The notes beneath the pieces were generated by a model, which saw only the letters and a list, made by a program, of their open reading frames with translations, ran no database searches and was not told where the DNA came from. Positions 21,968-53,154 of a stretch of 64,000 nucleotides of DNA are shown here, in pieces. The DNA is from Haliclona indistincta (Eukaryota; Porifera; Demospongiae; Haplosclerida; Chalinidae), in assembly GCA_964017065.1 (NCBI GenBank), contig OZ024789.1:4405971-4469970 (forward strand), read 5' to 3'. Numbering within the stretch: the first letter of the stretch is position 1; every line of letters starts with the position of its first letter. The translations under genes and the position numbers were made by a program.

Positions 21968-24900
21968 ATGGCGGATGTTGTCGAATCTATATCATTGTCA
22001 GATGCCGCGTACACGGCGCAGCAGCCAGATGGTTGGAACAAGCCTTGTACAGAGAGTCATCTTGCTTCCATTTCGGAAAACATTGCTGATTGGCGAGCTG
22101 TCTCTCCTCATCTGGGGTTGACAGAAGCTGAAGAAACCGCAATACTAGGGTCACATCCTCATTCTGTATCTGCACAAAAGATCGCGATGCTGAGAAAATG
22201 GAAGGAGAAACTAGGAAGAAAGAGCACGTACAAGAGACTTTGTCGGGTATTAGAGAATTGTAAGAGAGCTGATCTTGTTGACCTAGTCAAGCAACTATTG
22301 GCAGAGACTAGCAGCTCTTCAGATGAAGAAGGTATTATACCTAGTATGGCGTGTTATAAGTATGAGTTGTCGTGGTTGGTGTTTGAGCATTGTTTTATAC
22401 CCAGCCTAGTAAAGAAGCAAACTTTTTCCCTTCGGTCTTCCTCAACAACGCTTCCTCGCATCTGTGTAGGGGTCAGGGGAATGTAGAACACCGGAGTTGT
22501 GGCAGACCAATCAGATAGCATCAAAGCCTGACCTAAGCAGTGAATCTTGTTGGCCTCATGATAATAATGATGACTATCTAGAGATCAGGCTATAGGCTGC
22601 GTGCGCGTCAGAATAATTATACCAACATAGACTAACTGGTATTAGAGTATCTAGCTCAATGTTATTGACCAATCAGATTTACTAGATCGGAGGATCTATT
22701 TGCTGTAGAGACCATCCGCGAACTGATAGAGTCCATCCGCGAACAGATAGAGTCCTTCCGCGAACAGATAGACCACAGTTTGCTTAGTGAGAGTGCATTC
22801 ATAACGAGCCATAAAAATTGTTATTACAAGAACACGTGATGTGAGGTTTGTACACGTGTGAGCGTGAGTGAGTTCCAGAAACAAACTTCTTGTTGCGTCA
22901 AAAAGCCACTAGCAGACGCGAAAGCGATGGCGAAAGGACGGTAGGAGACGAGACAGAGTACCAGCAAGGTATAACAAGGCACGGAAAACAGTTTAGTGAC
23001 GTACTCTAGTAGCGATGTGCACTAAAAAGTTTAAACTCTATAAATCAATTACTAATTGTTTTAGGTGGCTTCTGCTAACCTTTAGCAGCATACAAATCTA
23101 AATTTCGTTAGAATCGGTGCTAAAATGGCTGAGTTACAACGGGTTTTGTGGCGGTTACTGTGTAATTTTGTTCTCCACTAAATTACATTACAAAGCTAGC
23201 CTCGTCCCCAGGCCCCGCCTCCCAAAGCTGAGGAGAGGGCCTGGTACAGACTGTGAGCGCATGCGCCGGAATTCACGGAATTCCAGAAATCACCGGATAT
23301 TTTCCGTTCATTATTGCTACACTTTACGTCACAGATCATGGCGGAAGTTAGTAGAGCAGATTTCGAGTCTACTATGTTGTATGCACTCCAGTGCATCGGA
23401 TGTTCACATTTGAAACCAAAGCCTGAACAGTTAGCCATGTATATGAAGGCAGTGATGCTTTCGTGTGGAGATATTGTGCTGTCAAGTTTTACCATTCGTT
23501 TTCAACCACAAGTACAGTCGTACTGACAGCCTAGTAGTAGTTGTCTCTCAGTTGGTGTCTCTTATGGTTGACCAGGTGGATGGCTTACGGCAAAAGGGAG
23601 TGAAAGCTGCAATAATATCGCCCGTAGGCAAAATTATTATATACGTCACATAAATAATTACCATCTAACGACGTCATCGCAATTAAATTCCCATGAATAA
23701 TAGACGCATGCGCACACAGTGTGTACCAGGCCCTCTCCTCAGCTTTGGGAGGCGAGGCCTGGGGACGAGGCTAATTACAAAGCCGGCTTCCTGGTTACAG
23801 CGGCGCTGTTGCGCACTTCGTAGTATAGGTGCAAAACGGTAATCTTGAGTATGACACGACAGCCTGGGCTATGCTGACCTGTTCGGCATACTTATTGAAG
23901 CAAACTACGTCCAGCCAGATCCACAACAATGGCTATAACGGACGCTCGGCCAGCTATTTGCCTGTTGCAGTACATGTCGAACAGGCCAGTTAGCATGACA
24001 CTCCAGCTGTGCGCGACTTTGGAGCACGTTTGCACTTACCTAAACTGTTACTAATATCTTTGTAAGTGCTGGTCAGAGGCATTCTCCAAGTTTAACTAAC
24101 ATTGCAAACTGTTCGACTACGAAAATATTTTTTTTGATTACCAAATTGCTGGTTTTTATTGATCTAGCACTGATTGATCATAAAAAAACAGCACTGTTTC
24201 CAATAATTGTCCGCTTAAATTTCATACTTAGTTGGAATCAGCGTATCTGAAAACCTTTGGGTGGTTTTTAGCCGCTGAAACGGCACTCAGACGTCGCGCA
24301 AGACAGTTTCCACTTTTTGAATTGAAAAAGGTGGAGACATTTCCGGCCGCATGACCATGACCTCGGCCAACGGGATCTACGCGGTATAGAAACCCTCGCG
24401 TCGCCATAGAACCCTCGCGCTACGCGCTCGGGTTCTATATGGCTTCCTCGGGTTTCTATACCACATAGATCCCTTGGCCTCGGTCTCTAACCTATACAGA
24501 GACAGGCAATATCCAGCCAAATACATTTCGTGGTGTTGCCCACGGCCGGCAAGACTCTGGCTGTGAAGAAATCAACGTTGTATTGTCCAGGTTTGAAAAC
24601 AGCACGTTTCCTCAAACTGACAATATCAGCTTCTCTAAGCTCTGCTTGTTGTACTTTTTCTATACAAAATCTTACAGGAAGCGCAGTAATCTATCATGCT
24701 CATTTATGTAATATTTTAGCAACTGCAACATTCCACCTGACGTCTAGCTGGCTACCTTACGTCGCAGGAAGACCGCAGAGCAGCCCGAGCGCCGTTTCTT
24801 TGTGGATTCTCGAACGCGGCGGCCATCTTGAAACGCGTGCGGGCTGTACACGATTTATAGCCCTCATTAACGCTCGATACATCAAAGAGAATTATTCATA

Positions 24901-27708
24901 CTATGGTTTAAATAGTGTTTAAACCATAGTATGAATAATTCTCTTTGATGTAACGAGCGTTAATGAGGGCTATAAATCGCGTACAGCCCGCACGTCTTTC
25001 AAGATGGCCGCCGCGTTCGGGAATCCACAAAGAAACAGCGCTCGGGCTGCTCTGCGGTCTTCCTGCGACGCAAGGTAGCCTGCTAGACGTCAGGCAAGCA
25101 GCGCACTATGGTTTAAAGTAGTTATATACCTCACAGTCGGTGTTTAAGCATTTAAACCCCTTGGGCTACGCCCGCGGGCTTTAAATCGCTTGAACACCTC
25201 CTGATCGGTATAATTATAACTACTATATAATATTATGAACTATCCTTATAATACTGGATAGCATAAACTTATTTTCTTACGTAAAATTTTCACATTTTTG
25301 ACCAGATGACAGAAATTTGATTTCGTATACAAAGATTTTGTGCTCTAATAATGTATAATAATTATTGCGAGAATAATTTCGCACTTGAAGGGCACCCACA
25401 AAAAAAGAAATTTTTAATTTTTTATGCTTAACAGTGAATGAATCATTTTTATAACTACACAGATGAGAAAAGTGATGATGGTTTGCCACCAGATCCTAAG
25501 AAGCGTAAGGAAGACTACTGTGCTGAATTTGTGACCCGCCTTCGACAGGTGTATAGTAAAGCCCAACCTCCAACCTGGGACCCTCTCCCTCAGTGCAGCC
25601 ATGTCAAACTAGCCATGATAAAGGACAAAGGAAAGCGATATGCATGTAACATTGAGATAACTGCTGAAAGTAGAATGAGAGGAGATATAGAGCAAGCTTT
25701 GACAGAGAAGGTACCTGTAGATTCCGATAGTATCTTTGATGCTGGCACCTTTGACTCTGAGCATCAGGTGATTCTAGTTGAAGGAGTGGGCGGAATGGGA
25801 AAAACAAGTCTTGCCTACCAATATGCCAAGAAATGGGCTGAAGGAAGCTTAAGTGTGTTTGATGCTGTGGTGCTTGTTCGTCTACGAGACTTGAACGAAC
25901 ACGATGTATGTGAAGTTGATCGTATCTTGCCTCACCTTCTCTTTCTAGCTAGTGATAAGCAAATGCCATCAGAAATGATCAGACATTTCTTTAGCGAGCT
26001 AAAGACTCTCTTCATCTTGGACGGCTGGGACGAAACTCCAGCAAGTATCCATAAAGTAATTCTCAAAAGCCTGCAGTCAGTTACTCCACTAACTACAATA
26101 TTAATAACCTCTCGACCTGACTTCTCGTTGAATCTTCACAATCTAGCTAACCGGGTAGAAATTCTTGGCTTCACAAAGAATGATATTCATGATTACTTTA
26201 AGGCAGCATTAGAATCCCAACTGTCCAGTCACAGTGAAGTGACATCAACTTGTGATAGACTTAGCAGTCATTTTCATCACCGCCCAGAAATTGAAAGCTG
26301 TTGCTATGTGCCTCTGAATGCTGCCATTCTAGCGTACATATACCTCTATCGCAACCAGACCTTACCCATCACTCGATGTGAGCTGTTTCAAGAGCTCGTA
26401 TTATGCTGCATAGTTCGTGAACTGAAAACTCGTCAATCTGATAGTGCCCTTGAAGATGTCTCCTCATTTGAGGACCTCCCTGCTGATCTCAAGAAACAGT
26501 TACACAAGCTCAGTGGACTAGCATTTGAGGGAATGATGCAGAACAAGATTGTTTTTTCACAGAAGGAAATCGCATCGCTCTCTACGTTAGGTCTGCTTCA
26601 TAGAGTCGAGGGGTTTGGCTCAATTGGTAAAAAGCCAGTGACTTGTAACTTTATTCATCTAGCCGTCCAAGAGCTTCTTACTGCCTACTTTATATCTCAA
26701 TTAAAACCAGCTGAGCATTCTAAACAGTTTAGAAATCTATTGAAAATCAATCGCATGTTTCCTGTACTCCAGTTCTACAGTGGTCTGACTAGGCTCAATA
26801 ATGAGGGTGTACGAAACCTTGTCGTCAATGAATTTCAAAGCTGTCGGCCAACGTTTGACAGACAAGAGGACAGAAACCTCGTAGTAATTATAAACTGCAT
26901 CTTTGAAGCACAAATGATAATTGATCAGGCATTTTATGAACAAATCACTAATACGCATAAATTGAATATGGATTTTCACGGCATTTCCTTGACTCCAATG
27001 GACTGTCTCTCGCTACAATACCTCCTGTCCTCCATTGGAAGAATGAAAAAAGGAAATATATCGATAAATCTCAACGATTGTAGCCTTAATGATGACTCCA
27101 TTAGTCTACTACTTGGAATTTCTCCTGAGCATACATCCTCTAGATCAAGTGTTTTGGAGTCTTTGGATACACTTTCTGCAGAAGAAAATAATTACACAGA
27201 TACTGGGCTTGTCTATTTTGTTGAAGCTCTAGATCTTACCTCCATCAGCACTTTAAAAACATTAAAAATCGGTAATGACATTGTAACAAACAAAGGAATC
27301 GAGCCACTATTAGAATTACTGCCAAGCCAACATTTGCTGGAGGAGTTGTATTTGTGTTGGTCATCACCCCACGATGATAAATTATTGGAAAAGATCGGAG
27401 AGTATGCAAAGAGAATGAGTAAACTCGAAAAATTAGTTGTATCTCCTGATGTGTCTCGTACATATATGCAATTCACATCAGAAGAATCAAAACAATGGTC
27501 CCAAAGTCTGATTGATGGTGGGAACCGTCTCATGTATTCTCTTGCATCCGGTATGGTTGAGGAACTTGTTATCCACATTTTTTTCTATACCAAAGGTATG
27601 TATGCTTATCGTAACCAGGTAATCAGTTCACTAAATGAGACAAGAGATAAAATCAATATCGAAAGAGAAAAGACAGGTCTACCTCACTTTGTATTTTATA
27701 TCCTCTAG
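21968..27708 (+). CDS. NLR-type receptor 2: death domain, NACHT, LRR-like C-terminus
   Basis: Exons 21968-22331 and 25463-27708 join in the same phase as NLR1 and encode 869 residues. Start ATG 21,968 (MADVVES) aligns with the MANLTTD start of NLR1. Domains are the same: N-terminal death domain (about 30-116), SSSSDEE linker, P-loop GVGGMGKTS, Walker B LFILDGWDE, TSRPDF, and an LRR-like end. The C-terminus stops at HFVFYIL, about 15 residues earlier than NLR1 relative to the aligned sequence. The 3.1-kb intron holds a repeat interrupted by a transposon with a helicase fragment, a long foldback and GC-looped hairpins. High similarity to NLR1 suggests a recent tandem duplication. The divergence visible in the linker (residues 125-175) and LRR-like part may reflect changing ligand specificity (inference). 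Confidence 0.88.
23197..23773. mobile_element. 577-bp TIR element carrying a RecQ-like helicase fragment
   Basis: The ends TAGCCTCGTCCCCAGGCC and its reverse complement extend as inverted repeats of about 50 bases. ATTACAAAGC is duplicated on both sides (23,187-23,196 and 23,774-23,783), and the empty site is preserved near 8,670. Related elements with the TAG(C/T)CTCGT(C/T)CC end occur at 57,862-58,464 and 59,287-59,925, with 8-9 base duplications. Long TIRs and 8-10 base duplications suggest a Mutator-like or similar cut-and-paste family (inference). There is no transposase. Confidence 0.9.
23338..23655 (+). pseudogene. RecQ-like helicase fragment captured in a transposon
   Basis: The first part, from ATG 23,338, encodes an LKPKPEQ-containing segment like the Q-motif region that precedes the Walker A motif in RecQ-type helicases. 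After a break, a second frame encodes LVVVVSQLVSLMVDQVDGL, matching motif Ia of RecQ helicases. The Walker A segment between them is missing and the frames differ, so it cannot encode an active enzyme. It fills most of the space between the element's inverted repeats. Confidence 0.65.
24359..24485. repeat. GC-looped hairpin element
   Basis: A foldback of about 125 bases (GACCTCGGCCAACGGGATCT ... AGATCCCTTGGCCTCGGTC). The central loop is CCTCGCGCTACGCGCTCGG, identical to the loop of an otherwise unrelated hairpin at 54,474-54,618. Confidence 0.75.
24736..25094. repeat. Long foldback of about 180-base arms with almost no loop
   Basis: The sequence starts CCTGACGTCTAGC and ends with GCTAGACGTCAGG. 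The arms mirror each other around about 24,914 (GGTTTAAATAGTGTTTAAACC) with few mismatches. Part of the arm (AGAGAATTATTCATA) also occurs singly at about 18,757 in the NLR1 intron, so it belongs to a dispersed family. It contains the GGCCGCCATCTTGA-type motif. It is non-coding and lies in the NLR2 intron. Confidence 0.85.
25118..25223. repeat. Hairpin with GGGCTACGCCCGCGGG loop
   Basis: Arms GTAGTTATATACC and GGTATAATTATAACTAC enclose a second inverted pair (GTGTTTAAGCATTTAAA / TTTAAATCGCTTGAACAC) and a GC-rich loop. It belongs to the same structural class as the hairpins at 24,359 and 44,503. Confidence 0.7.
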
Positions 27709-32989: not shown

Positions 32990-35749
32990 ATGGCGGGTTT
33001 TCCAGCTGACCGAGACGAAAAGTCTGTTTTTAATAGATTTTCATTGAGGATTACAAACGGTGTCAACTTCGGTGACCTTGTTCCGAAAGCATTCAGTTCA
33101 GAATTGATCGGTAGTCGAGATCGAGAGAATTGTTTAGCTAAGAAAAACAACTTTGAAATGGGGGACACATTCGTGGGTATCATGAACAGGGAGATCAGCG
33201 CCCATCCCAGCAACTTCTACATATTTGTGTACCTGTTGAAGAGCTTGGGACAGGGGGAGAGAGATATAGCTAGGAATGGAAGGTACGCATGTTTACTCTG
33301 ATGTAGCCGTTCATCTGCGTCAATGCATACAATGTACATGAGTTTTGATGTGAACTCTCACCTCGTCTATAATCGATTAGAACGTCAATGATATGCATGG
33401 TCAATGGAAATTCACTTATGCCGGCTCAATGAGGTTATACACCGTCTCCTTTGTTGGTGGTTTCCAATGACTGTAATACAAATTCATGCAGCCCTGAACT
33501 AGCTGTCAATAGCTGGAGCGGTGCAGTAGCACAATTAACCTACCACATACAAGTTCAACCATTCTAGCCAAATGTGTAGCGAACAGCTTTGCTTATACAC
33601 ATGTAGTGTTGCTTGTCGGCGTCTCGATCAGGCCTGCATCGATCATAGATTTGTAGCCATTGGCGAACTACGATCTTCAGCCAATGAAGGGTGCATAGCC
33701 TCAGCGTGTTATAATTGATTCTGAATGAGGTGATAGTTTATACCAAACTATGCACACACAGCTGAAGTTGGAGCAAAGGCTGAAGACACTCTACCACGTG
33801 ATACCCTTGAAAAGTAAGTGAATCAACTTTAGTACATGTAGATAAAATTATTTATGTGACTAGCCTAGGATAAATCGTGCAGCTGTGATCCGAACATCTG
33901 CTGGACACTCAGGTATCAAAAGTAATATCTAGTGTGACAGATAGAATAAAGCACCAAAGGTGCAGATGCCTCGGTGCAGTAGCATGTATGCTAGCATGAT
34001 GCAATTAGCAGATGCATATGACAGCACGTATGCATGCAGTAGATCCATGGAAGCATCAAAACAGTATCATGGAACTTGAGCATGCAAGCACCAGAACTAT
34101 GAAAGCATGCAAGCAGCAGAGCCATATTAGCATGCAAGCAGCAGAACCATAGTAGCATGCAAGCAGCAGAACCATGCTAACATGCAAGCAGCAGAACTAT
34201 GGAAGCATGCAAGCAGCAGAACCACGATAGCATGCAAGCATCAGAACCATTGTAGCATGGAAGCAGCAGAACTATAGAAGCATGGAAGCAGCAGAACCAT
34301 GGAAGCATGCAAGCAGCAGAACTGAAGCATGCAAGCAGTGGAATTGAAGCATGAAAGCAGCAGAACTGAAGCATGCAAGCAGCAGAACTGAAGCATGCAA
34401 GCAGCAGAACTGAAGCATCTAAGAAGCAGAACCATGGAAGCATGCAAGCAGCAGAACTGAAGCATGCAAGCAGCAGAACTGAAGCATCTAAGAAGCAGAA
34501 CCATGGAAGCATGCAAGCAGCAGAACTATGGTTGCATGCAAGCAGCAGAACCATGGATTGTAGCAGCATAGAGTACATGTAGCTAAAATGCATTGTACAA
34601 GCTGTTGTAATAACAAGAGTTCAATGGAACACATACCCTGTGCGCTATGCAAATGTGCAGAAATTGTTGTGAATGCTAGTTGTATTGTGTACTGTGATCT
34701 ATTGTATCGCCCATTAGAACAAAAGAATAGTTTCACTACTGTAGACATAATTATAGTGTTCATGAAGTTCTGAGCTCCTTTTGTGGCGGAGAATAATTTT
34801 TCTCTGAATCAAGGCAACACGAACTGCATCATCGTGCTGACATACTTTGCAACCGAATCTGCCGCTGCTCTGGTGTCTCAGAGGCAAGGCGATCGGATCT
34901 GTTTGGCGTGCTGACATTTCCACTGAACTGGCAACAACACAGGTGTTTTTCCTGTTACGAGCCATCCGTTTTGTTTCTCTGAGCAAAAACTAAGTACTGA
35001 CATACGAGAAGCAATACTCACCGCAAAAATTCCTCTGCTTCCATAGCCTCTACAGCCTTCCATGAAGGCATTCTTTGTCTCTTTGACATAAGTTTCAACG
35101 CTCATGCGGGAAGGTTGGGCGACACACCTCTAGTGAGTTACCGTATAATGTTCATAATTATTAGCGCTGTATTATTAGATACTATGGCCATAGCACGCCG
35201 CAGAAGAGTCTGCCGACTTTGTAGACCACTTTAGAGGAGTAAGAATCTCTCAACACAGCCGTAGAGAAGTATTGTATGGTAAGTCCCAATCGACAAACAC
35301 CAAACGGCCCTGTTTTTTGTACACACACATATATACATACATACATACATACGGACATCTTAACCCTCCGGCGCCTACGCGCCCAGGGTAAAAATACAAG
35401 CTGTTTACTGAAGACTGACCTTCATGACGCTTGCTCGCTCAGGCTCACTCGACGAGCAAGATGAGTCTGAAGACGCTTTCGCTTGCAAGATTCATTGCTG
35501 CTTATGGAGTCATATGAGCTGCACTGTCATATATCAAGCGCGATGTAGCCAGCTGTGGACAGTACTGTCTCTGAAGGAAGCCAGAACGCGAGCAACGGCA
35601 GCCTCCAGGCGAGCAAATCACGCCATAACTCGAAAACAAAGCCTTTAATCCCAATTCTGCCAAATTTGTTTTTCATAAACTACTGAGATCTACCTGTGTT
35701 GCTAATTTCAGCGCTTAGTAGCAAGCGGTTGCTGAGATACGCATTGCGA

Positions 35750-35781
<32 letters not shown>

Positions 35782-38360
35782 GAACAGACTACTGTACTGT
35801 ATGCCTCGTGGCTCCGCCCACACCTCGGCATAATTAAAAATCACATCTATAAATATTGTTTGTACTAAATAATAACTGATCCAGCTTGCTGGATGTGAGG
35901 CTGACACCCCAAACTCTAGAAAATTAAAAAGATTTCAAAAGGATGTAGGGTTGTGAAATCTACCACTGGTGGACCAGTGGTAGATTTCACAACAATGTAA
36001 ACTAACAAGGACAATGTAAACTAACAAGGAACAAGCGTGGAATGGTAACATGATTGACTTGCTAAGACCATAGATCCCTACATCAGTGGCTGCTGTGGTT
36101 GGTTATAGCTGGTTCAGCTAGTTGCTGTTGACTGACACCTAACGTGCATTCAGCTTGTGACAAAATATTAGATCAAACATAAGATCAAACATAAGATCAA
36201 TATTTTGTCACAAGCTGAATGCACGTTAGGTGTCAGTCAACAGCGACTAGCTGAACCAGCTATAACCAACCACAGCAGCCACTGATGAAGGGATCTATGG
36301 TCTGTTAGCAAGTCAATCGTGTTACCATTCCATGCTTGTTCCTTGTTAGTTTACATTGTGGACCAGTGGTAGATTTCACAACCCTACATCCTTTTGATTT
36401 CGATAGAAATCTTTTTAATTTTCTTGTTTGTGTCCTTTTTTTCTTATTCAGTGAAGTGCAGTTCAATATCATGCAATTACTGAGCTGTCTTTGTTTCCAC
36501 CATTGGTTTAGTTTTCCTGTTGTTGGTGGCTTTTCTTTATTATTAAGAATTTTAAACTTGTAGCTAATAATGATAATAATAATTGTTATGCTGTACATAT
36601 CAGCTCGCCTACACATGCATGCAGTGGATACGAGCCCCGCCCACAATTGTTGTAGACATGTACGGCGGTTGTAATCATCTGGCAAGCGCAGAATGGTGAT
36701 CCTATACGAGCTTACCGTTCTTCGAAGACTCCAGACAAATACATGTATGTGTTGTCCGTGATCCATAAGGCGCGGCGATACTCGAGCTAGTGCTCGATCA
36801 CGTGCGCTAACCACTGCTTGGTCACGTGCGTATTGCGCAATCACATCAATGGCGTCTAACACTTAGCTGACAATGGATCACGATCGAGAAATCTCGGAAT
36901 TTATATCGACGTTTCGCTAAAAACTAAGTTCAAAATGCACCTGCCAGAAGAATTTCACGACTGTTCGTGGGTGTTTTGGTCTCGGCATTGCTCGCGTAAA
37001 GGCGCTAGGCGCGCTGAAGAAAGAAAGAAGAAGAAAACGAAGATGACGAAACACGATTTTCACCGTTTCCAGGTTCGTCACTTTAGTAACAATTTCGAGC
37101 AATCTCCTTGCTACTGTAAGATGGGGCAACGCCAGAGAGCAGATTTAAGTGTCTTTTGACGTATACAATTCATGACCAGGCGAAACATCAGCGTTTGAAC
37201 GCTAATACATTGTATGTAGCCGCCATCTTGTTTTCTCGTTCAACCCTACATAGGGAGACACTGCCGTGCCTCCCTAATAAATGAAATTCACAACTGACCA
37301 CAGTCTGCCTGTATATTGGTGGTATATGTGTAGTCAGATGAATTTTCTATTTTCTGTTTGAGGGTTGTTCTGTTCAATTAAATTTATAATTCTACAGCAG
37401 CTGGTGGTGGAGTGAGGATGGGAAGCACTGTTCAAACTGATTCTCCAGGTAAAGAAGAGGTGCTATCATGGTCGTTGGACTATACAGCTGTGAAATCTTT
37501 ATGATATCTCTGTGCATGGTTCAGTCTTGAACTTCTGCTGTTTAATTTGTTTTTTACACAGCTAGTAACATCGTGTATGTGATTATTATAATGGGTCTTT
37601 CTTATTCACAGACCCTTCTACTGCAGCTGGTACTGCTAGACCATCAAGATCTGCTTGTAAGGATAACTGATACTTACAGTAGTTCATGATTGATGCATGG
37701 AAATAACATCATTCATGCACTTGAGCCTTCTATTGTCAGACATGATCAACAGATGAATTCACAGGAGTCCAGATCTGTGTACTTTCCATATTCATTCAAT
37801 CATTTATGTCTATACTCAACTGTTTTCAGAATTACTTCTGTAAGTATAGTGATAGTCTCTTTTAGCCAAACTCACTGCCAACTTGAAAGAGCCAGCACAG
37901 CCCACAAGAGATTATTGTGTCAACATCCATGCACCTCCTGGAATAGTTATGAAGCCTCAAGTTTTTACTAGAACAATTGCTATCCTGCTGCTGTTATTAT
38001 AAAGTGCATGATGACCCTTCTCTTGCCTTTCTAGATCAAGCTCCATCATGGCCTCTACTCATCACTATTGAGAAGCATGATGGTAGTACCCTCCATATTA
38101 AAGACTCTATTGTTGATGTCCATGACAAGGATCAGTGCATACAGTTTGCTCATCTCCTCTTGAACTCGCGTCAAGATGTGATGAAGATAGTGAATGACAG
38201 CTCAAAACAAGACAAGAAGGATTTAGTGAGAGCAGTGTTAGACAAGTGGTTATCATCAGGGACCAGCTCATGGCAGCAACAAATAGACGCTATGAGAGGA
38301 GCTGATATGGACCAGGCTACTACTGATGAGATTGCTACATATGTACTATATCAAGAGTAG
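32990..38360 (+). CDS. CARD-like + death-domain adaptor
   Basis: The model has six exons: 32990-33282 (CARD-like domain, start MAGFPADRD), 33762-33813, 33869-33912, 37398-37448, 37612-37656 and 38035-38360 (death domain, ending YVLYQE). The small middle exons encode a Gly/Ser/Pro/Thr-rich linker. From exon 3 onward all phases agree. Exon 1, however, is two bases short at its 3' end compared with the paralogs at 38,542 and 52,416 (GCTAGGAATGG against GCTACAGGAATGG), so the CARD would be out of frame with the rest. This is a real mutation, an assembly error or a wrong donor. The 3.5-kb third intron contains a minisatellite-bearing repeat and a foldback. If functional, it would bridge CARD and DD partners like the vertebrate adaptor CRADD (comparison by architecture only). 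Confidence 0.6.
33945..34610. repeat. Minisatellite of about 21-22 bp inside a repeat element
   Basis: From about 34,075 to 34,560 the unit GCATGCAAGCAGCAGAACCAT repeats more than twenty times with variants. The flanks (AAAGCACCAAAGGTGCAGATG on the left, GTAGC.AAAATGCATTGTACA on the right) recur in reverse complement around another array at 43,115-43,600. Array and flanks therefore move or duplicate as one unit. Open frames across it are artefacts of the repeat length. Confidence 0.85.
35400..35835. repeat. Repeat with inverted copy at 42,695-43,100
   Basis: The segment from TGACGCTTGCTCGCTCAGG to CGTGGCTCCGCCCACACCT, including a CA microsatellite at 35,755-35,780, matches 42,695-43,100 in reverse complement. 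Together with the minisatellite pair it makes inverted repeats flanking 35.8-42.7 kb. Confidence 0.75.
35920..36424. repeat. Long foldback element with about 230-base arms
   Basis: The arms AATTAAAAAGATTTC ... ATTTTGTCACAAGC mirror around about 36,185. A small nested palindrome (TCTACCACTGGTGGACCAGTGGTAGA) lies in the left arm. Related copies lie at 50,047-50,459 (complete but diverged) and 50,791-51,064 (one arm only). The shared end motif is AAGATTTCTATCGAAATC. No coding capacity. It lies in intron 3 of the CARD-DD adaptor gene. Confidence 0.85.
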
Positions 38361-38541: not shown

Positions 38542-41500
38542 ATGGCGGGTTTTCCAGCTGACCGAGACGAAAAGTCGGTTTTTAATAGATTTTCATTGAG
38601 GATTACAAATGGTGTCAACTTCGGTGACCTTGTTCCGAAAGCATCCAGTTCAGAATTGATCAGTAGTCGAGAGCGAGAGGATTGTTTAGCAAAGAAAAAC
38701 AACTTCGAAATGGGGGACACATTCGTGGGGATCATGTTCAGGAAGATCAGCGCCCATTCCAGCAACTTCTACATATTTGTGTACCTGTTGAAGAGCTTGG
38801 GACAGGGGGAGAGAGATATAGCTACAGGAATGGAAGGTACGCATGTTTATAATCTGATCTATCCGTTACTCATCTGTGTCAATGCGTACATGCACACACA
38901 GCTGAAGTTGGAGCGAAGGCTGAAGACACACTACCACGTGATACCCTAGAAAAGTAAGTGAATCAACTTTTGCTGTCTTTATAAATTATTTATGTGACTA
39001 GGATAAATCGTGCAGCTGGGATCCGAACATCTGCTGGACACTCAGGTATCAGAAGCATGCATTGTCTAGTGTGACAGATATAGAATTAGAATTATGATCA
39101 GGAAATTTACACACAACTGTTCGTGGTGAATACACAAAGTATTTTGATTTTATTTTTGTGATAGTGAAATGCATAATAATGTACACCAGTTTTATACACA
39201 GGTCCTCCTCCTCCTTCTTCTATGGTCTCTCCAGCTAAATGTGCCAGTAGCATACCAAGGCTCCGTGCAAGTAAGAATTAAATCTATATCTATTAACTAA
39301 TAATGATCCAGCTAATATCAAAAATTGATGAAAGTGCTTCAATATCAGGTTGTGTAGAATCTCACCCTAGGAGGGAGAGATTGTAAACCATCATATATAT
39401 CTTGCTTGTATGCATGCTGTTGGGAGGTGTTCTAACTGTCAATTATAGGCATTATAATAATTATAATAATGTTGTCATTCGATAATAATATTATGGGTAG
39501 TCATAGCAGCAACAACATGATTGATACTTGACAGGTACACTGGACTGGTTGATTCGACACAACTTCCAGCATTGTGGCATCTGATTAGCCATACTCACAT
39601 TAAGTAGTGACAGCATGGTAGTGTCAGGCAGAGCTATACCTTGTAGACTAATATTCCCTGACTATAAGCAACTGTCAATACGCCCCCTTGTATGGAACGC
39701 CGTAGTGGACAAAAATCGAGTAGTACAATCGACGAGCGGTCATTGGCATCGATCAGCGGTGCGCCAGAGGCTGATAAGCGGTCATTGGCGTCGATGAGCG
39801 ATGAGCGATGTGTCGTAGATCGATCAGCGGTCATCGATGCGTGCCGTAGATCGATCGTCGGTCATCGATGTCCGCCAGAGGCCGACCAGCGGTCATTGGC
39901 GTCGATGAACGGACCAGCGGTCATTGGCATCGGTCAGTGGTGCGCCAGAGGCCGATCTGATCAGCCACATGCGGTCATTTACATCTATCGGCGGTGGCCT
40001 ACTGCCAGTAGTCGCAGTGTTAGTGGTTTGGATTAGGCCAGGGTGTGGCCTAGAAATAGTTGACTCCACCTCACTTATACACAAAATGGAGTTTAACTTG
40101 GAGGAGTTCTTGTCGTTTGTTGAAAATGCTATCCTGTCAATTCAACGCGGCTGTGAGCGAGGGAATGATATTCAAGATGTGCTGCTACAATCTGAACTTC
40201 TAGTTAGAGATGTGGTGTTTGTACGAGAGTTGTTTCCTGATGATGATACGCATGAAAACGCTCTAGAAGCTGTTATGGATGTCGCTATAACCTGTCAAGC
40301 TCTAGCTGATGAAAATCATCGACAGCATATGAAAGGTCGTCCTTTAATCTGCAAACAAAAACCACGCCTACTGAGCGCGGTCAGTATGGTACACATGCAC
40401 TTCTGGCGCACTGCTGTTGCGCGCGATGACGCTGATCGACCTACCGTCACCTACGGCACACCGCTGATGGACATCGATGACCGCTGATCGATTAACGGCA
40501 CACCGCTGATCGATTAACGGCACACCGCTGATCGATGTCCGATGACCGCTGATCGGCCTTCGGCACATCGCTCATCGACGCCAATGACCGCTTGTCGGCC
40601 TCTCGCGCACCGCTGATCGATGCCAATGACCGCTCGTCGATTGTACTACTCGATTTTTGTCCACTACGGCGTTCCATACCCTTGGAGGTGGTGGGCAGTG
40701 GTGATTACATTACTATTCAATGAATATCACAATGTTGCAATGCTGTGGTTCACAATTGTGTATTCCATCTGATAGTACCAACTCATGGTACAGCTGATTA
40801 ACTTTGTGAAAATTTTATTATTGTACGACACAAAAATTATCATTCTGCAGTTTAATGCTTATCCTTATTTGGTTATTCAAGTTATGATTTTCATTCTTAG
40901 GTGACACACTTTTTTACAGAGATGCTAAACCAACACTCCCGGACTTGCAGTACATGTCCTACACTAGTGAGGATGGAACCACTGTTCATTTCAGACTAAT
41001 GGATCGGATCAAACCACGAGTAACAGATCTAGCTGTAGCCTTAGGCTTCCCTCAACATGTCAGAGATTACATGGAAACTAAACGAGATCAAGTCTACTAC
41101 ATACTGAGTGAGTGGCTGGAAGGACGCAACCAGGAGAATGATCAGAGACCACTGACCTGGGGAACACTAATCACTGCTCTACAACGTGCTGGTCTACCGA
41201 ACGAGGCTGAGATATTGCAGCAGCATTTTGTGGATGTACCACAAGTTGCAATGAGAAACGGTATGCTTAAACAGTGATGGGTAAAGGGTAGGGAATCAGG
41301 AGACAAGACATCCCTCTCTTCGCGGTCTACTAATAATTATTCATTGTATAGTTCTATTGATGTGCCTATATATTCCCTTCGAATCGATACCATCGAGCTC
41401 TGACAAAGATCAGTGATCACCTCTATATACGCGCAGGCTAAGCACGACAATGTGACTTGAGGATTTTGCTAAACGCTTCCATTTTCAATTTATGGCTGGC

Positions 41501-44500
41501 TCACCTTGACGGTTGTCTTGGACCTCTCTGAGGAGAAACATTATTAAAAGTTGGCTGCGTAGGTACTTTTACATTCGTAGTACAGCTCTGGGATGCGTAT
41601 ACATTTCAAAAAGAAGCATGTCAGAAATGACTGCTTACTACTCACTAGTCTTAGAGGTGTCCATAAATCTGAAGTTTTTTGTGCTGTTGTTGGATATTTG
41701 ACAGACAAGAATCGTGCGCCTGTCTGGTCTATACTTCGGCTTTTGCTAGAAAGATATTCCAAAATTCATTGTTCGACATTAAGGTGGCGGGTTGGCAACT
41801 TTTAATTACTTAAAGAGTACCTCAGGAGCTTATCATTCCAAGGAGCATACAACTTTGAATTACCATTCACACAGCTAAACAAAAAATTGATCGTGCTTAG
41901 TCGAGTCACAGCTCCACAATGGTTAACACTACATGTTTGAAACTTGCATTGATCAATGCTCCATCGATAGGCAAACTAACTGCATACTGGAACAAATACC
42001 CAATGCTAGAAAAATAGCTTTTTGCAAGGTTATGAATCTCATTAATTTTTAGCATACCCACCACCTTAAAGTGGCGGGATACCAAGTCAATAATTTTCAA
42101 ATTTGCAAGTAGCTGTACTTTTCTCGCCATTAGTGCTCGTACAGACAGTGATCCGTGCAGTGTGAACTTTATTAATTTTGTCTATAAACAGTCATCTATC
42201 ATAGCAAGTTTCAACCACATAGCGTTAGCCATTGTTGAGCGATGAGCTCACTCAGTGAAGACTACTCCAGGTTGAACTTGCAATGATCAATGACTGTTTA
42301 TAGACAAGCAAAGTTCACACTGGAGTGCTGTCTACACAAGCGTTAATGGCTAGAAAGTATAGTTACTTGCAAAAGTCATGAATATGATTAACTTGGTATC
42401 CTGCCATTTTAAAGCGTTAAAATCAGTTGAGTGTGATTTCAATAATAATTCTTTCACTAAAAGTTCAAAATAGAATATTAGGCAAAATAGATATTGTCGA
42501 TACCCCTAACTAGTCTTGTCCTCCGACCACTTCTTCTGCTAAGCTCGAAGTAGGGTCTGGTTGAATTCCTAGATAAATGACGTTTTCATTCTCTGAATCG
42601 AGGAATGTGCAGTATTTAAAAAATTCACATGACATGGTTAACATTTGCTATGGGAATCATGGTAGACATTTGTAGCGAGCAACTTTAGTATCCGTGTTCT
42701 TATGCCAAGGTGGGCGGAGCCACGTAGGCATACAATAGTCCGTTTGTTGGTGTGTGTGTGTGTTCGCAACGTGTATCTCAGCAACCGCTTTCTACTAAGC
42801 GCTGAAATTAGCAACACAGGTAGATCTCAGTATTTTATGAAAAACAAATTTGGCAGAATTGCGGCTTTGTTTTCGAGTTATGGCGTGATTTGCTCACCTG
42901 GACTGCCATTGCTCGCTTTCGGGCTTTATTCAGAGACAATACTGTCCACAGCTGGCTACATCGCGCTTGACCTGTGACAGTGCAGCTCCGGCATACGACT
43001 CCATAAGCAGCAATGAAATTAGCGAGCGAAAGCGTCTTCAGACTCATCTACATAGCTTGTCGAGTGAGCCTGAGCGAGCTAGCGTTGATACAATCTATGC
43101 AGGTCTTCAGTAAACAGTTTATTACAACAGCTTGTACAATGCATTTTAGTTACAATTACTCCATGCTGCTACAATCCATGGTTCTGCTGCTTGCATGCTT
43201 CAGTTCTGCTGCTTGCATGTAGTTCTGCTGCTTGCATGCTTCAGTTCTGTTTCCATGGTTCTGTTGCTTCCATGCTACCATAGTTCTGCTCCTTGCATGC
43301 TTCAGTTCTGCTGCTTGCATGCTACCATGGTTCTGCTGCTTCCATGCTACCATAGTTCTGCTGCTTCCATGCTACCATGGTTCTGCTGCTTGCATGCTAC
43401 CATGGTTCTGCTGCTTGCATGCTACCATGGTTCTGCTGCTTGCATGCTACCGTGGTTCTGCTGCTTACATGCTTCCATGATACTGTTTTGATGCTCTACT
43501 GCATGCATATGTGCTGTCATATGCATCTGCTAATTGCATGCTAGCATACATGCTACTGACCGAGGCATCTGCACCTTTGGTGCTTTATTTTTTAGTGACA
43601 GCAAGAAGCCATGGTCATTTTAGCAAGGCGAGATGCTTGTTTTCACTCTTTGTGTACTTGAAATTACAATTTTCCTTAGCGTTTCTGGGCAAAAGCTCTT
43701 CAGTGGGTTATCTATCAGTTGCTGTTTCTTAGGATGTAGATAGACGCTGCAAATACAGCTAGGTCGACAATTTCCAAGCAAACTCATGTGATTGTGCACG
43801 TGACAATTTTGTCATTGGCCAGATCTGATCATAACCTTGAGCTTAGTGGAAGAGGGTGTGGTCTGGGGACAAGACTATAACTACTCACGTGCGCCTACCT
43901 GACTCACCTTGACTTTGTGGTCAGCACTTTACTAGCAAGCAAAATCTTGCTCCTTGTGCAACATGTACTCTGAATAGTTGACACTACAATGTGCATGACA
44001 CGCCCACCAAGGGTTTGTAAAATCTGATCATTTTAATAATGCCTTGTCCATACACAGCACCACCTGACAGTGTTAGCAGAGCTAAGCGACCAAGAATTGA
44101 AACAGACTCTTCAGGTACAGTGTAAATTGTACTGATTGAATATTACATTGTGGGGCTGAGTGATAATCATAATTGTACCATAGGAAGCCTTATTTTCAAA
44201 GGCACCGCCAGTGGTATATTTCAGATATTCCACAGTTAGTCACATGATTTCCTGTGGTATAACTGGACATTCCACGGGAAATCATGTGACTTCCTGTGGT
44301 ATACCTGGATATTCCACAGGAAGTCACATGACTCCCACTAGATCATAGAAGTGATCTATCTTCCAGAGAGAAAAATAGGAAGGGGTGAGAGTTGTTAGTC
44401 AACCTCACCAGTAAACCATGAAGAGTGTGCAAGTCGCCCTTATTTATCCTATAGAAACCTACAGACATCAGTGGGCCTTGTGGTTGCCATCGTACAAGTC

Positions 44501-47430
44501 AGTTATACCATGCCTACCTGTGGTGTATCATGAATACACTCAGCAATAACCATTAATCCCTCAGGCTACGCCCTCGGGATTAATAGTTATTGCTTCGTGT
44601 ATTCATGATACACCACAGGTAGGCATGGTATAACATTATACTTATTACATGTATCATTATCATGGTCGATGTGAATAAAAAATTATGATCACAATAGTAT
44701 TACAGATTATGAGCAAAGGAAAGGTCAAATAATGCGTATTTTAGCTGATCGCTAACCGAGGTTATACGTTGACAATTATAGAAGTGAAATTCAATGCAGA
44801 TTCCAGAAAATCAGGCTCACTCAGACAAGCCTATTTACATATGTGCGAAAACTAATTTTCACACATGAGTAGCCGCCATCTTAATCCGATGTCATCCTTA
44901 CATATCATTGCCTATCGGCAATGATAATACTACAACACAAAGAACTTCTAGAAAAAGCTAGAACAATACGCAAAAAGGCAGGACACCCCAGATCACAGAA
45001 CGAATACAAAAATTAGGAAACACATAAATGGTTCAAGATAGTCATGGTAAATTTCGGATTTTTCATACAACTTTCAAAGGCTAATTAGAGATGAAATAAC
45101 TGGCCCCAGGGATGCTAGTAGACATTGACAACACTGTAGTATTATAAATCACCAAACAGCTGCATGCAGTTATGCTTATGTGCATTTACTATTGATTGCT
45201 GCCCATGTAGATCTTATGAAAAAGATTGTAGAGATAAAATTAATAATAAATTATTGTGATTGTAAGATGATATCATGATAATCATACTATTGCTATTATC
45301 ACTCAGCACTATTGTCTAGACAATTATAATTTGATGTGTGTTTGAAGTTATAATAGTTATCATTTTCCAGTCTATTTTAAATGTACATAATTTCAAAATT
45401 GCAGGACAAATTTTTTCAAAAAATTGCATATGGATGTCAAGCAGCATGCAGTCAGCTGCAACATTACAACCAGCAATAATTATATTTGGGTGAAAATAAG
45501 CAAGAAATTAAACTCATTAAAAGTGCTTAAAATGTAGTTCAAGTGGACAGTGTCAGTGGCTAAATTTTATGCAAAATGCCTTTTGATATTTTGGGCGCAA
45601 TAATACATTATGAGACTCCCTGGAAAAAAACTGTAGGGATGACGCCTGTGAAAGTAAAGGAACAAAAGTAAAGTAATAAGATGGAACATTGTTTGTAAAA
45701 GTCCCACATCAGCAGCTTGCTGTGACAACCTCAGTGCAACAATGCGGAATCCTCATCCTATACTTCGAGCAGAGACCTCCCATTGTCAACTACTTTAAAC
45801 CTTCAATTACTTCAAAACACAGCTACTGACCTCAAGCTTTAAAACCATCAATTACTTCATTGGGCTGCGCCCTCCAAACACACAAGCCGCTGATGTAGGC
45901 CTGGATACAGTGAAACTCCTCCTTGCAGAGGAGGTCACCCCTCAAATGAGGTCACACACCCTAATACGGCATAGATATTATATACGGACACTGCATGTTT
46001 TGTCTTCAGAGAACCAATGCTGCAGCAATTATCCTTGATATAACTGTTAGTTACTGAGTGTGTGTTATCAAAGCATGTCCAATGCATGCAATTCCATCAA
46101 GGCATCTGTACCTTGGTGCTTCATAATGTTTGACTCGTTACTGACTTAAATTTCTGTATACTATTATGTTTTAAAATGAATTAATTTATGCAGCATCGCA
46201 ACACTTGTTGAAGGACAAAAATTACCCGGAAGCTGATTTTTCAAGTAAAGGTGGTGGCTTGCAACATGAGATTGATATAGAGCATAGTAAAAGAGGTCTT
46301 GCAGTGATCTTAACAAATGGAAATTATAGGCATCCGGATTATTCTCGGTTAAGCTTCACCGAAGACGACGGCAAAGAAATGGGAGAAACGTTCAATGATT
46401 TTGATTTCAATTGCTACTCAGTGAAAGATCTAACTGCTCCTGAAATACAAGATCTGGTTGATCAAATCTGCAATTGCAAGTATCCTAATTCCTACATGTA
46501 CGAGTATGTTGTTTTTGTTTACTCTGGACACGGCAAGATTACGAGAGACGGGAGAAGTTCAGGTCTGGTTGGAATTGACGGAGAAATGATCGAGACAACT
46601 TCTAGAGTTATCGAACCACTGAAAGGAATCAAGCCACAATCAATGACTAAGATAGTGTTTATAGATGCTTGTCGTGGCATTAAACGCGGAATCCCAAAAG
46701 GCGAACAAACAAAATGCTTGGTAGCTTATGCAACACAGTTCCGTTATGTTGCCTATCCTAGTGAAGCAGGTAAAGGAAGCCTATGGATGATGCCACTTGC
46801 TAAGAAGCTAAAGCAAAGAGAAAAGTCAGTGCAGCAAGTCCTAAAAGAAGTAGCAGAAGAATTGTTGATGAAGGGTTGTTCACAATATCCAGAAATGGAT
46901 GACAGTGACTGCAAACCACCAATCTTTCTTGCACGTACATGTAAGCACACAAAATTATTAAAGTCTTGTGATTTATGTTGTTGCTTAAATATCAGTGCAG
47001 ACCAAAGGAACAACACCACCAGCATATGAAGAGTTTCCTAAACTTGGTAAGCAATAATTATTATTGATCTACATGTATAGGATAGTGAATTCGTGAATTA
47101 TTTTCAGGTGGAAAACCTAAGATGGTAGACTTAGCCTACTTAGCAAAGCGTGATGGAAATGGTTTGATACGAATCATAGATAGGATCTTAGAAAAAGACA
47201 TCTCTACTATCGAGCGGTGTTCTCGTACACTGCTCGAATACGGGGATCGGCCAGTTCAACCGGAACCAGCTACTGATGAAGACAAGCAAAGGTTTTGTCT
47301 TGAAGTACTGATCAAGTGGCTTTCGACGGGTACACCAAAGACCCGTCCAACCTGGAATAATCTGATCGAGTGCTTAGAAGATGCTGGGCTCAGGGATGTT
47401 GCAAAAGACATAAAAGACAACCTGGGATGA
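38542..47430 (+). CDS. CARD-like / death domain / C14 protease / death domain protein (copy B)
   Basis: Nine exons fit one continuous frame: 38542-38836, 38902-38953, 39002-39045, 39202-39270, 40901-41260, 44058-44114, 46194-46934, 46996-47046 and 47108-47430 (stop). They total 663 residues. Order: CARD-like domain (10-95), Pro/Ser linker, death domain (about 178-258), short basic linker (SRAKRPRIE), caspase-like domain with catalytic His 405 (YSGHG) and Cys 452 (DACRG), and a second death domain (about 580-660). Every junction is GT-AG with matching phase, including the two long introns. An alternative is two genes: a CARD-DD adaptor ending by read-through at 41,277 (MLKQ stop) and a separate protease. 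The Asp of DACRG occupies the position that in metacaspases and paracaspases favours Arg/Lys substrates. Expected role: cytosolic initiator protease activated by clustering. A decayed kinase lies downstream. Confidence 0.7.
39691..40678. mobile_element. 988-bp TIR element with subterminal repeats in copy B intron
   Basis: The ends TATGGAACGCCGTAGTGGAC are perfect inverted copies that continue for about 100 bases. They are flanked by CCCTTG on both sides (39,685-39,690 and 40,679-40,684). Both subterminal regions carry many variants of GCGGTCATTGGC and GATCAGCGGTGCG. The paralogous intron of copy C at about 58,510 (CGCCCTCTTGGAGG) is the empty site. Confidence 0.88.
40086..40390 (+). pseudogene. 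Gene fragment inside the 988-bp element
   Basis: From ATG 40,086 an open frame encodes an acidic, helical segment (MEFNLEEFLSFVEN onward) ending in KGRPLICKQ. The GRP followed by a basic/helical stretch resembles the N-terminal region of transposon-derived integrase-domain proteins found in many animals, but this is only a resemblance. No catalytic domain follows. Its base composition and codon pattern differ from the surrounding repeats, so it looks captured or is a transposase remnant. Confidence 0.4.
41779..42069. mobile_element. TTAA-flanked MITE (piggyBac-like)
   Basis: TTAAGGTGGCGGGTTGGC at the left and a diverged inverse (CATACCCACCACCTTAA) at the right define about 290 bases flanked by TTAA. 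The same end type (GGTGGCGG) occurs at 56,610-57,312. TTAA targeting is typical of piggyBac. No transposase. Confidence 0.65.
42066..42412. mobile_element. Second TTAA-flanked MITE, abutting the first
   Basis: It starts TTAAAGTGGCGGGATACCAAGT and ends ACTTGGTATCCTGCCATTTTAA. An inner inverted pair (GTCTATAAACAGTCAT / ATGACTGTTTATAGAC) lies at about 42,179-42,306. It shares a TTAA with the element on its left. Confidence 0.65.
42695..43600. repeat. Inverted copy of the 33.9-35.8 kb repeat, with minisatellite
   Basis: 42,695-43,100 is the reverse complement of 35,400-35,835, and 43,115-43,600 of 33,945-34,610. The about 800 bases lying between these blocks in the first copy are absent. The array at 43,175-43,470 uses the unit CATGGTTCTGCTGCTTGCATG. 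Confidence 0.8.
43601..44057. other. Intron interval with transposon end
   Basis: There is no coding sequence. AGGGTGTGGTCTGGGGACAAGACTATA at 43,853-43,879 is a solitary end of the TAG(C/T)CTCGT element family. A phrase at about 43,900-44,030 resembles the 17.0-17.6 kb repeats in reverse orientation. Confidence 0.45.
44180..44345. repeat. Cluster of short inverted TTCCACAGGAAGTCACATGA units
   Basis: Three or four alternately oriented copies of TTCC(A)CAGGAAGTCACATGA and its complement lie in 165 bases, able to form several small stems. It lies in the intron before the protease exon of copy B. Confidence 0.65.
44503..44633. repeat. Hairpin element with GGCTACGCCCTCGGG loop
   Basis: Arms TTATACCATGCCTACCTGTG and the reverse complement are about 55 bases each, almost perfect, around a GC-rich loop. 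It is of the same class as 24,359-24,485, 25,118-25,223 and 54,474-54,618. Confidence 0.85.
44640..46193. other. Intron of copy B with remnants shared with copy A
   Basis: It contains the ACACATGAGTAGCCGCCATC block with the palindrome TCATTGCC-ATCGGCAATGA (44,862-44,930, compare 1,818-1,880), the inverted counterpart of 337-790 (45,640-45,890), and an AAGGCATCTG-ACCTT-GTGCTTC motif (46,098-46,125, compare 1,138-1,165). No exon is seen here. Confidence 0.5.
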
Positions 47431-48056: not shown

Positions 48057-49476
48057 ATGATTGTTAATGCAATGAGGCAGTTGGTGCAAGAAATATTGCA
48101 ACAACAACTACAGCAGGAGAGGGAGAGAGCCCGAGAGGTTGAGCAGAGACTTGACCACAGACAGCCAATTGCAGACTAGAGAGAATTAAGGATCGGCAGA
48201 TAGAGCAGGTTTAACAAGCACTTGTAAGAGATTGAGGTTATACTCTCATAATGCTCACAGCTGCAGCATCACCTGCAAGATACTGAGCACACTCTTAATC
48301 AGGTGGTAGAGCAGTTACAGGAAGTAAGGGAGAGAGAGCAACTTCTTGATCAACAACTGATTGAAAGAATAGAAGAGGTTTAGAGAGTGCTGTTAATGAT
48401 TGTTTTTGAGTCATTCCATCTTCAGAACAAGGAAAGAGAGATAGCGATGACCAAAGTGAAAGAACAGGCAACCATAGAGAAGGTGAAAGAGAAGGAGCAA
48501 GTGACCAGGGAGAAGGAGCAAGTGATAAAAGAAAGGGAGCAAGTAACCAAGGAAAAGGAACAAGTGATGAGAGAGAAGGAGCAGATTCAGCGAGACCTAC
48601 AGCTACTGACAGAAGAGTCACAACAACAGATCCAACAGCTCAGACAACAGGTCATTGATTTCATAGTGACATCATCATCACTGTATGTATGTTTGTTCTC
48701 ACCTCTAGTTGTCAGTCATGGAGATAACTGCACTAAGCGAGGAGCAGCCCCACTGGGTGGTGAGGAGAGAGGAGGTGGAGCTGACTGAGGAGGTGTTGGG
48801 CAGAGGAGGATGGGGAGAAGTGAGGGTTGCCAAATTTCGTGGACTCAAGATGGCTGCAAAACTTCTATATGATGTGATCGTTTCTGACTACAATAGACGA
48901 CAGTTCACTCGTGAAATGACAATTGCTGCCAAGATCCGTCACCCCAACCTGTTGCTGTTCATAGGAGCCACAAGAGAGGGAGAGGCAATTATTCTCACAG
49001 AGCTAATGCCAACCAGCCTGCGCAGGGAGTTACAGAGAAATGAGATGCCACAAGTACAGATTACTTCTATTGCCCAAGATGTGGCTTGTGCTCTGCGCTA
49101 TTTACACCAGTGGAGGCCCTCTCCGATCATCCATCGTGACATCAGCAGTGCCAATGTGCTACTCGAGCCACTCCCTAAAGGCTGGCGGGCAAAGGTCTCT
49201 GATTATGGATCTGCCAATTTCATGAATGCTGTTGCTACAGTAGCTCCAGGTAGCCCAGTTTATGCTGCTCCTGAGGCTTGCTATCCTGACCAACACTCTC
49301 CAAAAATGGACACCTTCAGTTATGGAGTATTGCTGATGGAGATGTGCATTAGAGAACTTCCTGAATCCAGTCCAGCACAGAGAGAGGCTCAGATCCTGCA
49401 AATCCAGTGGGCAGCCATGGTGTCCCTGGTGAGGAGGTGTACTATAGTGAGAGTCCAGCTGATCGACCCAACATGA
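48057..49476 (+). pseudogene. Truncated coiled-coil + TKL-like kinase copy B, frameshifted
   Basis: Exons 48057-48208, 48261-48377, 48426-48650 and 48709-49476 parallel copy A. The first coiled-coil exon has a one-base and a four-base insertion (CTTGACC; AGAGAATTAAGG), net two bases out of frame. The kinase exon keeps the G-loop, AAK, HRD, DYG and AAPE, but a two-base insertion (ACTATAGTG against ACTAGTG) at about 49,442 shifts the frame in the last helix, replacing ERPADRPSM. Use of an internal ATG in exon 3 (MTKVKEQ) could still give a kinase lacking only its C-terminal tail. No kelch exons precede it. Confidence 0.72.
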
Positions 49477-52415: not shown

Positions 52416-53154
52416 ATGGCGGGTTTACCAGTTGACAGCGACGAAAACTCGGTTTTTACTAGATTTTCACATAGGATTACAAATGGAGTCAACTTCGGTG
52501 ACCTTGTTCCGAAAGCATTCGGTTCAGAATTGATCGATAGTCGAGAGCGACAGGATTGTTTAGCAAAGAAAAACAACCCCTTTGAAATGGGGGACACATT
52601 CGTGGGGATCATGAACAGGAAGATCAGCGCCCATCCCAGCAACTTCTACATATTTGTGTACCTGTTGAAGAGCTTGGGACAGGGGGAGAGAGATATAGCT
52701 ACAGAGATGGAAGGTACGCATGTGCAGTTTATAATCTGATGTAGCTGTTACAAATCTGTGTCAATGCTTACATACACACAGCTGAAGTTGGAGCGAAGGC
52801 TGAAGACACTCTTCCACGTGATACCCTAGAAAAGTAAGTGAATCAACTTTTGCTGTCTTTAGTAGATAATTATTTATGTGACTAGGATAAATCGTGCAGC
52901 TGGTATCCGAACATCTGCTGGACACTCAGGTATCAAAAGCATGCATTGTCTAGTGTGTCAGAAAGAATTATAATTATGATCAGGAAATTTACACACAACT
53001 GCTCGTGGTGAATGCACAAAGTATTTTGATATATTTTGTGATTAGTGAAATGCATAATAATGTACTCCAGTTTTATACACAGGTCCTCCTCCTCCTTCTT
53101 CTATGATGGTCTCTCCAGCTAAATCTGCTAGTAGCATACCAAGGCTTCGTGCAA
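52416..53154 (+). CDS. CARD-like first exons of a third CARD/DD family gene (copy C, partial)
   Basis: Exons 52416-52713, 52782-52833, 52886-52929 and 53083-53154 match the first four exons of copy B almost base for base, with the same phases. They encode the CARD-like domain plus the APEVG-type and GPPPPSSMM linker. Exon 4 has one extra Met codon. The next expected exon (death domain, as at 40,901) is not found before the window ends. The intron homologous to 39,271-40,900 can be followed, with insertions, to about 58,620 and then loses similarity. The gene may continue beyond the window or have lost its 3' part. Confidence 0.75.

Follow-up and report, generated by a model that had tools for sequence, protein, structure and literature searches.

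A nine-exon locus of the sponge Haliclona indistincta probably encodes a single C14 protease with CARD and death domains, classed outside caspases and paracaspases

The window analysed here is a stretch of 64,000 nucleotides from one Haliclona indistincta contig, within a 144-Mb assembly of 46 contigs. The gene under study occupies positions 38,542-47,430 of the window and consists of nine exons, whose internal borders are all flanked by AG at the acceptor and GT at the donor. When the exons were joined in silico, 1,992 nucleotides gave 663 amino acids and a stop codon in a single frame. An earlier note on this DNA had described nine GT-AG exons in one frame and a protein of about 663 residues. 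It also pointed out that the single base left over by the death domain exon is carried through the 57-nt linker to the protease exon, which requires exactly one; the join bears out all of this. The features of the locus are given below, with the evidence for each.

1932-3156, plus strand: C14, linker and DD2 exons of paralogue A, whose CARD, DD1 and 57-nt linker lie upstream of the window
32990-38360, plus strand: CARD copy (32990-33282) and DD-like exon (37956-38360), adjoining the focal protease
38542-38836, plus strand: exon 1, start codon and CARD, 98 codons and 1 base (joined frame, profile, fold)
38902-38953, plus strand: exon 2, linker of 52 nt, phase 1 to 2 (joined frame)
39002-39045, plus strand: exon 3, linker of 44 nt, phase 2 to 1 (joined frame)
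39202-39270, plus strand: exon 4, proline-rich linker of 69 nt, phase 1-1 (joined frame)
39690-40679, no strand assigned: inverted-repeat element of about 1 kb in intron 4, outside the protein, with a 6-bp target duplication CCCTTG
40901-41260, plus strand: exon 5, first death domain (DD1), phase 1-1, with an in-frame alternative start at 40922 (Pfam Death)
44058-44114, plus strand: exon 6, linker of 57 nt, phase 1-1, found also in copies A and C (joined frame, copies)
46194-46934, plus strand: exon 7, Peptidase_C14 with catalytic His (SGHG) and Cys (DACRG) (Pfam, alignment)
46996-47046, plus strand: exon 8, linker of 51 nt, phase 1-1 (joined frame)
47108-47430, plus strand: exon 9, C-terminal death domain (DD2) and stop codon (sub-threshold Pfam Death, profiles)
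52416-53154, plus strand: CARD and linker exons of paralogue C, whose 57-nt linker, C14 and DD2 lie downstream of the window

The ORF at 40,086-40,334 was considered as a further exon and rejected, because it is located in the inverted-repeat element, which is missing from copy A (empty site). A second, partial copy of this ORF (51 aa, 100% identical) is present on another contig (C9:3390226). A nuclear-localisation role for the KRPR motif in the linker exon was likewise dropped, since KRPR is not kept in A and C.

By its family profile and predicted fold the exon 1 domain is a CARD. Exon 1 of the focal gene itself has no Pfam match. It has 53 matches in the genome; 14 sequences were aligned, and Pfam CARD (PF00619) was detected at E <= 1 in 6 of these 14 (best 6.6e-5). 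In hhalign, the family profile reached 96% with ten Pfam-CARD domains and 0.1% with eight death domains of the same genome. Against solved structures the profile matched weakly (MDA5 at E 0.032, caspase-9 at 0.25 and worse, with designed TPR proteins between). The predicted model has six helices, one of five models being confident. In the fold comparison most of the 50 matches listed were CARDs, with APAF-1 at TM 0.69-0.76; the best Foldseek E-value was 0.08 and the top match a designed protein.

DD1 scores 25.2 bits with Pfam Death, above the cut-off of 22.6, and its relative L023 scores 22.2 bits, just under it; the low-diversity profile of DD1 itself reached only 4% with the Death profile of the genome. 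DD1 has 49 matches in the genome, among which only the focal and A copies sit between an exon-1-type CARD and a family C14. DD2, the least firm of the domain identities, scores 18.3 bits with Pfam Death, under the cut-off. Its profile reached 93% with DD1 and 62% with Death, and its predicted model has six helices, although the fold comparison did not separate DD, DED and CARD. Over the full 663 aa, Pfam Death totals 35.7 bits in two stretches. The genome-wide Death search gave at least 150 scored matches among 1,372 candidates.

Exon 7 belongs to peptidase family C14, with a Pfam Peptidase_C14 match at E 2.7e-23 (83.3 bits, cut-off 21.4) and an aligned His-Cys dyad. In the alignment of C14 domains, 34 of 45 genome matches were read, and every one of them, the focal domain included, retains the catalytic His and Cys. 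The caspase residues for Asp at P1, which we take to be R64, Q161 and R207 (caspase-3 numbers), are L, D and P in the focal protease. None of the three is kept and the Asp pocket of caspases is lost, a fact hidden by the earlier note's comparison with classical caspases. Equivalents of R64 and Q161, forming the canonical caspase set, are present in 16 of the 34 domains, and 15 of these also have R207. The remaining 18, among them the focal one, have neither arginine, and the glutamine is replaced by D (17) or N (1).

At MALT1, residues D365, D462 and E500 have been suggested to set Arg at P1, according to the available text of PMC4357240. The focal protease has Asp at the first two positions and Pro at the third, and so departs from the MALT1-type paracaspase set. 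Only D462 discriminates the paracaspase pocket, because the D365 column is also Asp in 13 of the 16 canonical caspases. The E500 column holds Glu in 2 of the 18 non-caspase-type domains (L077, L083), and among six relatives from the protein collection three have Glu and two more Asp. The distance from the catalytic Cys to the p10 motif is 19 residues in the focal protease, 26 in MALT1 and 23-57 in 15 of the 16 genome caspases (one unmeasurable; L074 doubtful). Judged from its residues, the pocket is nearer to that of a paracaspase, with one acidic residue absent. A loss of Asp specificity is well supported, a basic P1 specificity only moderately supported and descent from paracaspases not supported at all.

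In the midpoint-rooted tree, the 16 genome caspases and human caspase-3 grouped without the focal protease with a support of 100/100. A branch with a support of 95/94 parts the focal protease from MALT1 and five other domains of the genome (L080-L082, L085, L086), together with L084, P0009 and P0011. MALT1 and L084 have long branches, and the program flags the joining of MALT1's branch to a second long one as possibly false. When solved structures were searched with the sequence profile, the best 60 of 231 matches were caspase-3 and caspase-7 and MALT1 was not among them; the best 60 of 85 matches in a second search were likewise caspase-3/-7, without MALT1 among those listed. Paracaspases are described as type 1, with DD, Ig and protease, and type 2, with protease only, the latter including those of sponges (PMC5978004, available text). 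A Pfam search of the whole 663-aa protein gave no Ig domain at E <= 1, so that of the type 1 pair (DD and Ig) only the DD is present; the bare protease of type 2 is also not what is found, the joined frame holding three death-fold domains. Since the focal protease departs from what defines caspases and from what defines either type of paracaspase, it is filed as a C14 protease outside all of them.

Among 7,765 candidates from 5.8 billion proteins, none matched the full-length protein at E <= 0.001. The protease exon alone gave 12 protein matches, which include the two that lie in the window itself, the focal gene and A, together with C and the L017 locus. One protein, P0004 (226 aa), is 75% identical to the protease and comes from a public 418 kb contig; it is not listed in the C14 search of the assembly and perhaps represents another haplotype or a related species.

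The open frame is conserved in two paralogues, which belong to an array on the contig of the focal gene. In copy A the full set of nine exons is present, in unchanged order, within 12 kb. Copy C has the CARD and linkers and then, about 22 kb on, the 57-nt linker, the protease and the last DD; no DD1 was found in the approximately 22 kb between its exon 4 and 57-nt linker exon. Exon identity to the focal gene is 93% for A and 91% for C. When their exons are joined likewise, both copies are free of internal stops, with 664 aa for A and 544 aa for C. The loss of DD1 from copy C does not disturb the frame, because this exon is of phase 1-1, and since both paralogues stay open an accidental open frame is largely ruled out.

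Insertions and deletions follow the same pattern. Exonic indels are in multiples of three in 5 of 5 cases between the focal gene and A and 9 of 9 between the focal gene and C (14/14), compared with 4 of 13 and 0 of 10, respectively, in the aligned introns (4/23). The sole indel in exon 4 against copies A and C is of 3 nt. The exonic-intronic difference has a Fisher p of 5e-7, a value that is too favourable because some indel events are common to both comparisons, the 14 exonic indels falling at about 10 distinct places.

Two splice acceptors differ between the copies. At the acceptor corresponding to 40,901, copy A has GG, with an in-frame CAG|AT 21 nt downstream. The focal gene has GAG|AT at this A-type site and a TAG 21 nt upstream in the same phase; in all seven other DD1 copies with a correctly marked border, that of A among them, the A-type site itself reads CAG or TAG. 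The DD1 exon may therefore start at 40,922 instead of 40,901. The join of copy A was made at the GG site homologous to 40,901, and the same frame is obtained from its AG 21 nt downstream. In copy C the 57-nt linker has CTG at its acceptor; a CAG slightly further into the exon takes its place, and the phase is unchanged. Such phase-keeping shifts at DD1 and the linker would be the pattern expected from selection for the spliced frame.

Substitution rates between the focal gene and A give an overall dN/dS of 0.71, with 0.20 for DD1, 0.75 for C14, 0.87 for the CARD and 0.96 for DD2; exons 2-4 taken together have 0.12 against A and 0.07 against C. The overall ratio against C is 0.76, and the difference from 1 is not significant (p = 0.07 for A, 0.12 for C). 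Between the focal gene and A, DD1 and exons 2-4 are under strong constraint: nonsynonymous changes number 6 at ~398 sites there and 94 at ~1,144 sites elsewhere (p = 2e-7), with no contrast in synonymous change between the two parts (p = 0.71). DD2 of the focal gene and C differ by 22 nonsynonymous and 2 synonymous changes, which is not significant (p = 0.13). As the overall ratios, though high, do not depart significantly from 1, dN/dS carries less of the evidence for the frame than do stops, indels and splice phase.

The C14-DD2 neighbourhood is constant. All 6 intact loci of the clade, the outer three of which have proteases 54-58% identical to the focal one, show a DD2-type domain behind C14, and two interrupted C14s have one as well. 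In the DD2-family search the 8 best of 15 matches adjoin a family C14, two of these being interrupted. The front ends differ: CARD-DD in the focal gene and A, and CARD in C. At L015 two CARD-like ORFs are found, and at L017 a CARD-like ORF lies beyond a 1,020-aa ORF; both assignments are weak, with no Pfam match and with hhalign values of 65% and 62% for a profile of three sequences. L019 has a weak DD-like ORF with no Pfam Death match and 17.9 bits to the DD-like exon of one neighbour. This arrangement points to a protease-DD core that stays constant while the front ends are exchanged.

ORFs with, or next to, death-like domains contain motifs resembling 2A sequences, DVEQNPGP at L023:5487-6152 (plus strand) and DVESNPGP at L019:3486-3695 (minus strand); PMC4981915 deals with 2A-like signal sequences.

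Around the focal locus lie NACHT, kelch, collagen and kinase ORFs together with death domains. Exon-1-type CARD copies are also found 5' of a different DD-like exon, beside both the focal protease and A. The CARD copy at 32990-33282 has a 2-nt deletion that changes the phase of the exon end, which is not so in the two copies upstream of A; this copy and the DD-like exon at 37956-38360 perhaps form one adaptor-like CARD+DD gene. Death-domain ORFs stand upstream of NACHT ORFs twice (14963-15340 with 18780-21260, and 21860-22486 with 25441-27708), an order that resembles DD-type NLR genes. Kinase ORFs come after the focal gene (at position 48.7 kb) and after A (at position 4.4 kb). The kelch exon and protein kinase ORFs (9412-12843, 4093-5145, 48384-49476) have coiled-coil-like stretches by eye, and coiled-coil and kinase ORFs come after both proteases. 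Proximity may point to a functional link between these neighbours and the protease.

The sequence argues that the focal gene probably encodes one protein with a CARD, a DD, a caspase-fold cysteine protease and a second DD, in which the CARD-DD part would be spliced to the C14 exon. The earlier note's order of CARD-like, DD, C14 and DD in one protein is thereby kept as the best reading, and its caspase framing is given up on account of the S1 residues and the prodomain rule. The main competitor is a locus with two products, namely a CARD-DD adaptor-like protein ending at 41,277, with the intron after DD1 retained, and a shorter protease-DD protein starting nearer to 46,194, or isoforms of one locus to the same effect. 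If the DD1 donor is unused, an in-frame stop follows within a few codons, and copy C has lost DD1 yet stays open; the neighbouring CARD copies are followed by DD-like exons only, which may mean that the region has adaptor-like genes. Two adjacent genes, each conserved, would also give the same pattern of stops and indels. The 57-nt linker is difficult to accommodate in such a scheme: as an internal exon it must join an upstream phase-1 exon, it has no in-frame ATG in the focal gene and A (C has one), and it is present in three copies with its phase kept despite the acceptor shift. The protease exon, moreover, starts directly behind an acceptor, and its first coding bases are identical in the three copies. 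Two products are judged unlikely, though this is the likeliest of the competing readings.

That the single protein is an ordinary Asp-specific caspase with an unusual prodomain appears highly improbable. Searches of solved structures by sequence do put caspases first (ancestral effector caspase, caspase-3, caspase-7), and the tree places the focal protease on the caspase side of the branch leading to MALT1. Against this stand the complete absence of the S1 residues from a domain whose genome holds 16 of 34 with R and Q, 15 of them with the second R, and the fully supported grouping of those 16 with human caspase-3 to its exclusion. A scaffold with an inactive protease domain, or a decaying gene, has an equally slight chance: the high dN/dS in C14, CARD and DD2 and the C14 fragments with stops elsewhere in the genome would agree with it, but the invariant catalytic His and Cys of the domains read, the three open copies and the exonic indels in threes do not.

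For the single CARD-DD-C14-DD protein, a mechanism can be proposed in which it is recruited and activated by assembly through its death-fold domains; we hold the full mechanism to be about evenly balanced, with a slight lean in its favour. The CARD and DD1 would place the protease into two kinds of upstream assembly, candidates being CARD+DD adaptors encoded beside it or DD-bearing NACHT receptors of the cluster. Crowding there would dimerise the protease and switch it on, with no separate cut between its subunits. The DD at the C-terminus, a constant feature of the family, could aid dimerisation or bring substrates, and the protease should not prefer Asp at P1, a basic residue perhaps being preferred. 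The partners, activation by proximity, the P1 preference and the exchange of front ends are what we infer from the arrangement. It is plausible that, as the earlier note had proposed, a CARD-DD prodomain with a C-terminal DD couples two upstream assemblies to one downstream partner, and varying front ends on a constant C14-DD core would fit such coupling. The most extended version, that an early-branching animal has Ig-less proteases with a paracaspase-type pocket, their own CARD-DD adaptor fused to them, a basic P1 preference, a constant DD and swapped front ends, is doubtful at present; the tree and the sequence searches of solved structures, which do not favour a relation to MALT1, lower its probability.

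If it is true, the protein would be a one-chain counterpart of the Bcl10-MALT1 or RAIDD-caspase complex, and one protease activity would be wired to different receptor assemblies through swapped front ends. If the front half is spliced to the protease, this sponge has proteases other than canonical caspases with several death-fold domains, in contrast to the bare protease domains described for sponge paracaspases in the text available (PMC5978004). It would then be testable whether CARD/DD recruitment of such proteases predates the MALT1 type. The C14-DD core with differing front ends also offers a natural series for the effect of each recruiting domain.

In the literature searched, mostly open texts without supplements, neither the order CARD-DD-C14-DD nor a C-terminal DD on a C14 protease was found described. 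Mixed prodomains are known from amphioxus caspases, where bbtCaspase-1/2 carries DED and DD (PMC3196919, available text), contradicting the earlier note's view that classical caspases have prodomains of one type only. Like the focal protein, it has two different death-fold domains before the caspase domain; unlike it, it is related to caspase-1/2, has a DED in place of the CARD and, in the text available, no DD is described behind the protease. Hydra caspases are reported with an N-terminal DED, CARD or DD (PMC4715348), Amphimedon has an expanded set of proteins in which one to three death-like domains precede TRADD-N (PMC8195603), and the sponge Dysidea avara has 39 CARD and 128 DEATH genes (PMC12909245), each as given in the accessible part of the source. 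The type 2 paracaspases of non-metazoans and early-branching animals, sponges among them, resemble the focal protease in standing outside the canonical caspases and lacking Ig, but are described as protease only (PMC5978004), whereas the focal protein has three death-fold domains. Human MALT1, a type 1 paracaspase, shares with it a death-fold domain before a caspase-fold protease, a short inter-subunit stretch and, at the S1 positions D365, D462 and A498 named in the text available (PMC4357240), Asp, Asp and Ala. The focal protein differs from MALT1 in that no Ig was found, a CARD stands in front and a DD behind, Pro replaces E500 and the tree, in which MALT1 has a long branch, does not group the two. 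A CARD+DD unit is used with a caspase-fold protease by RAIDD/CRADD and caspase-2. There the unit and the protease are two proteins, whereas in the focal gene they are probably one chain, with a DD added at its C-terminus.
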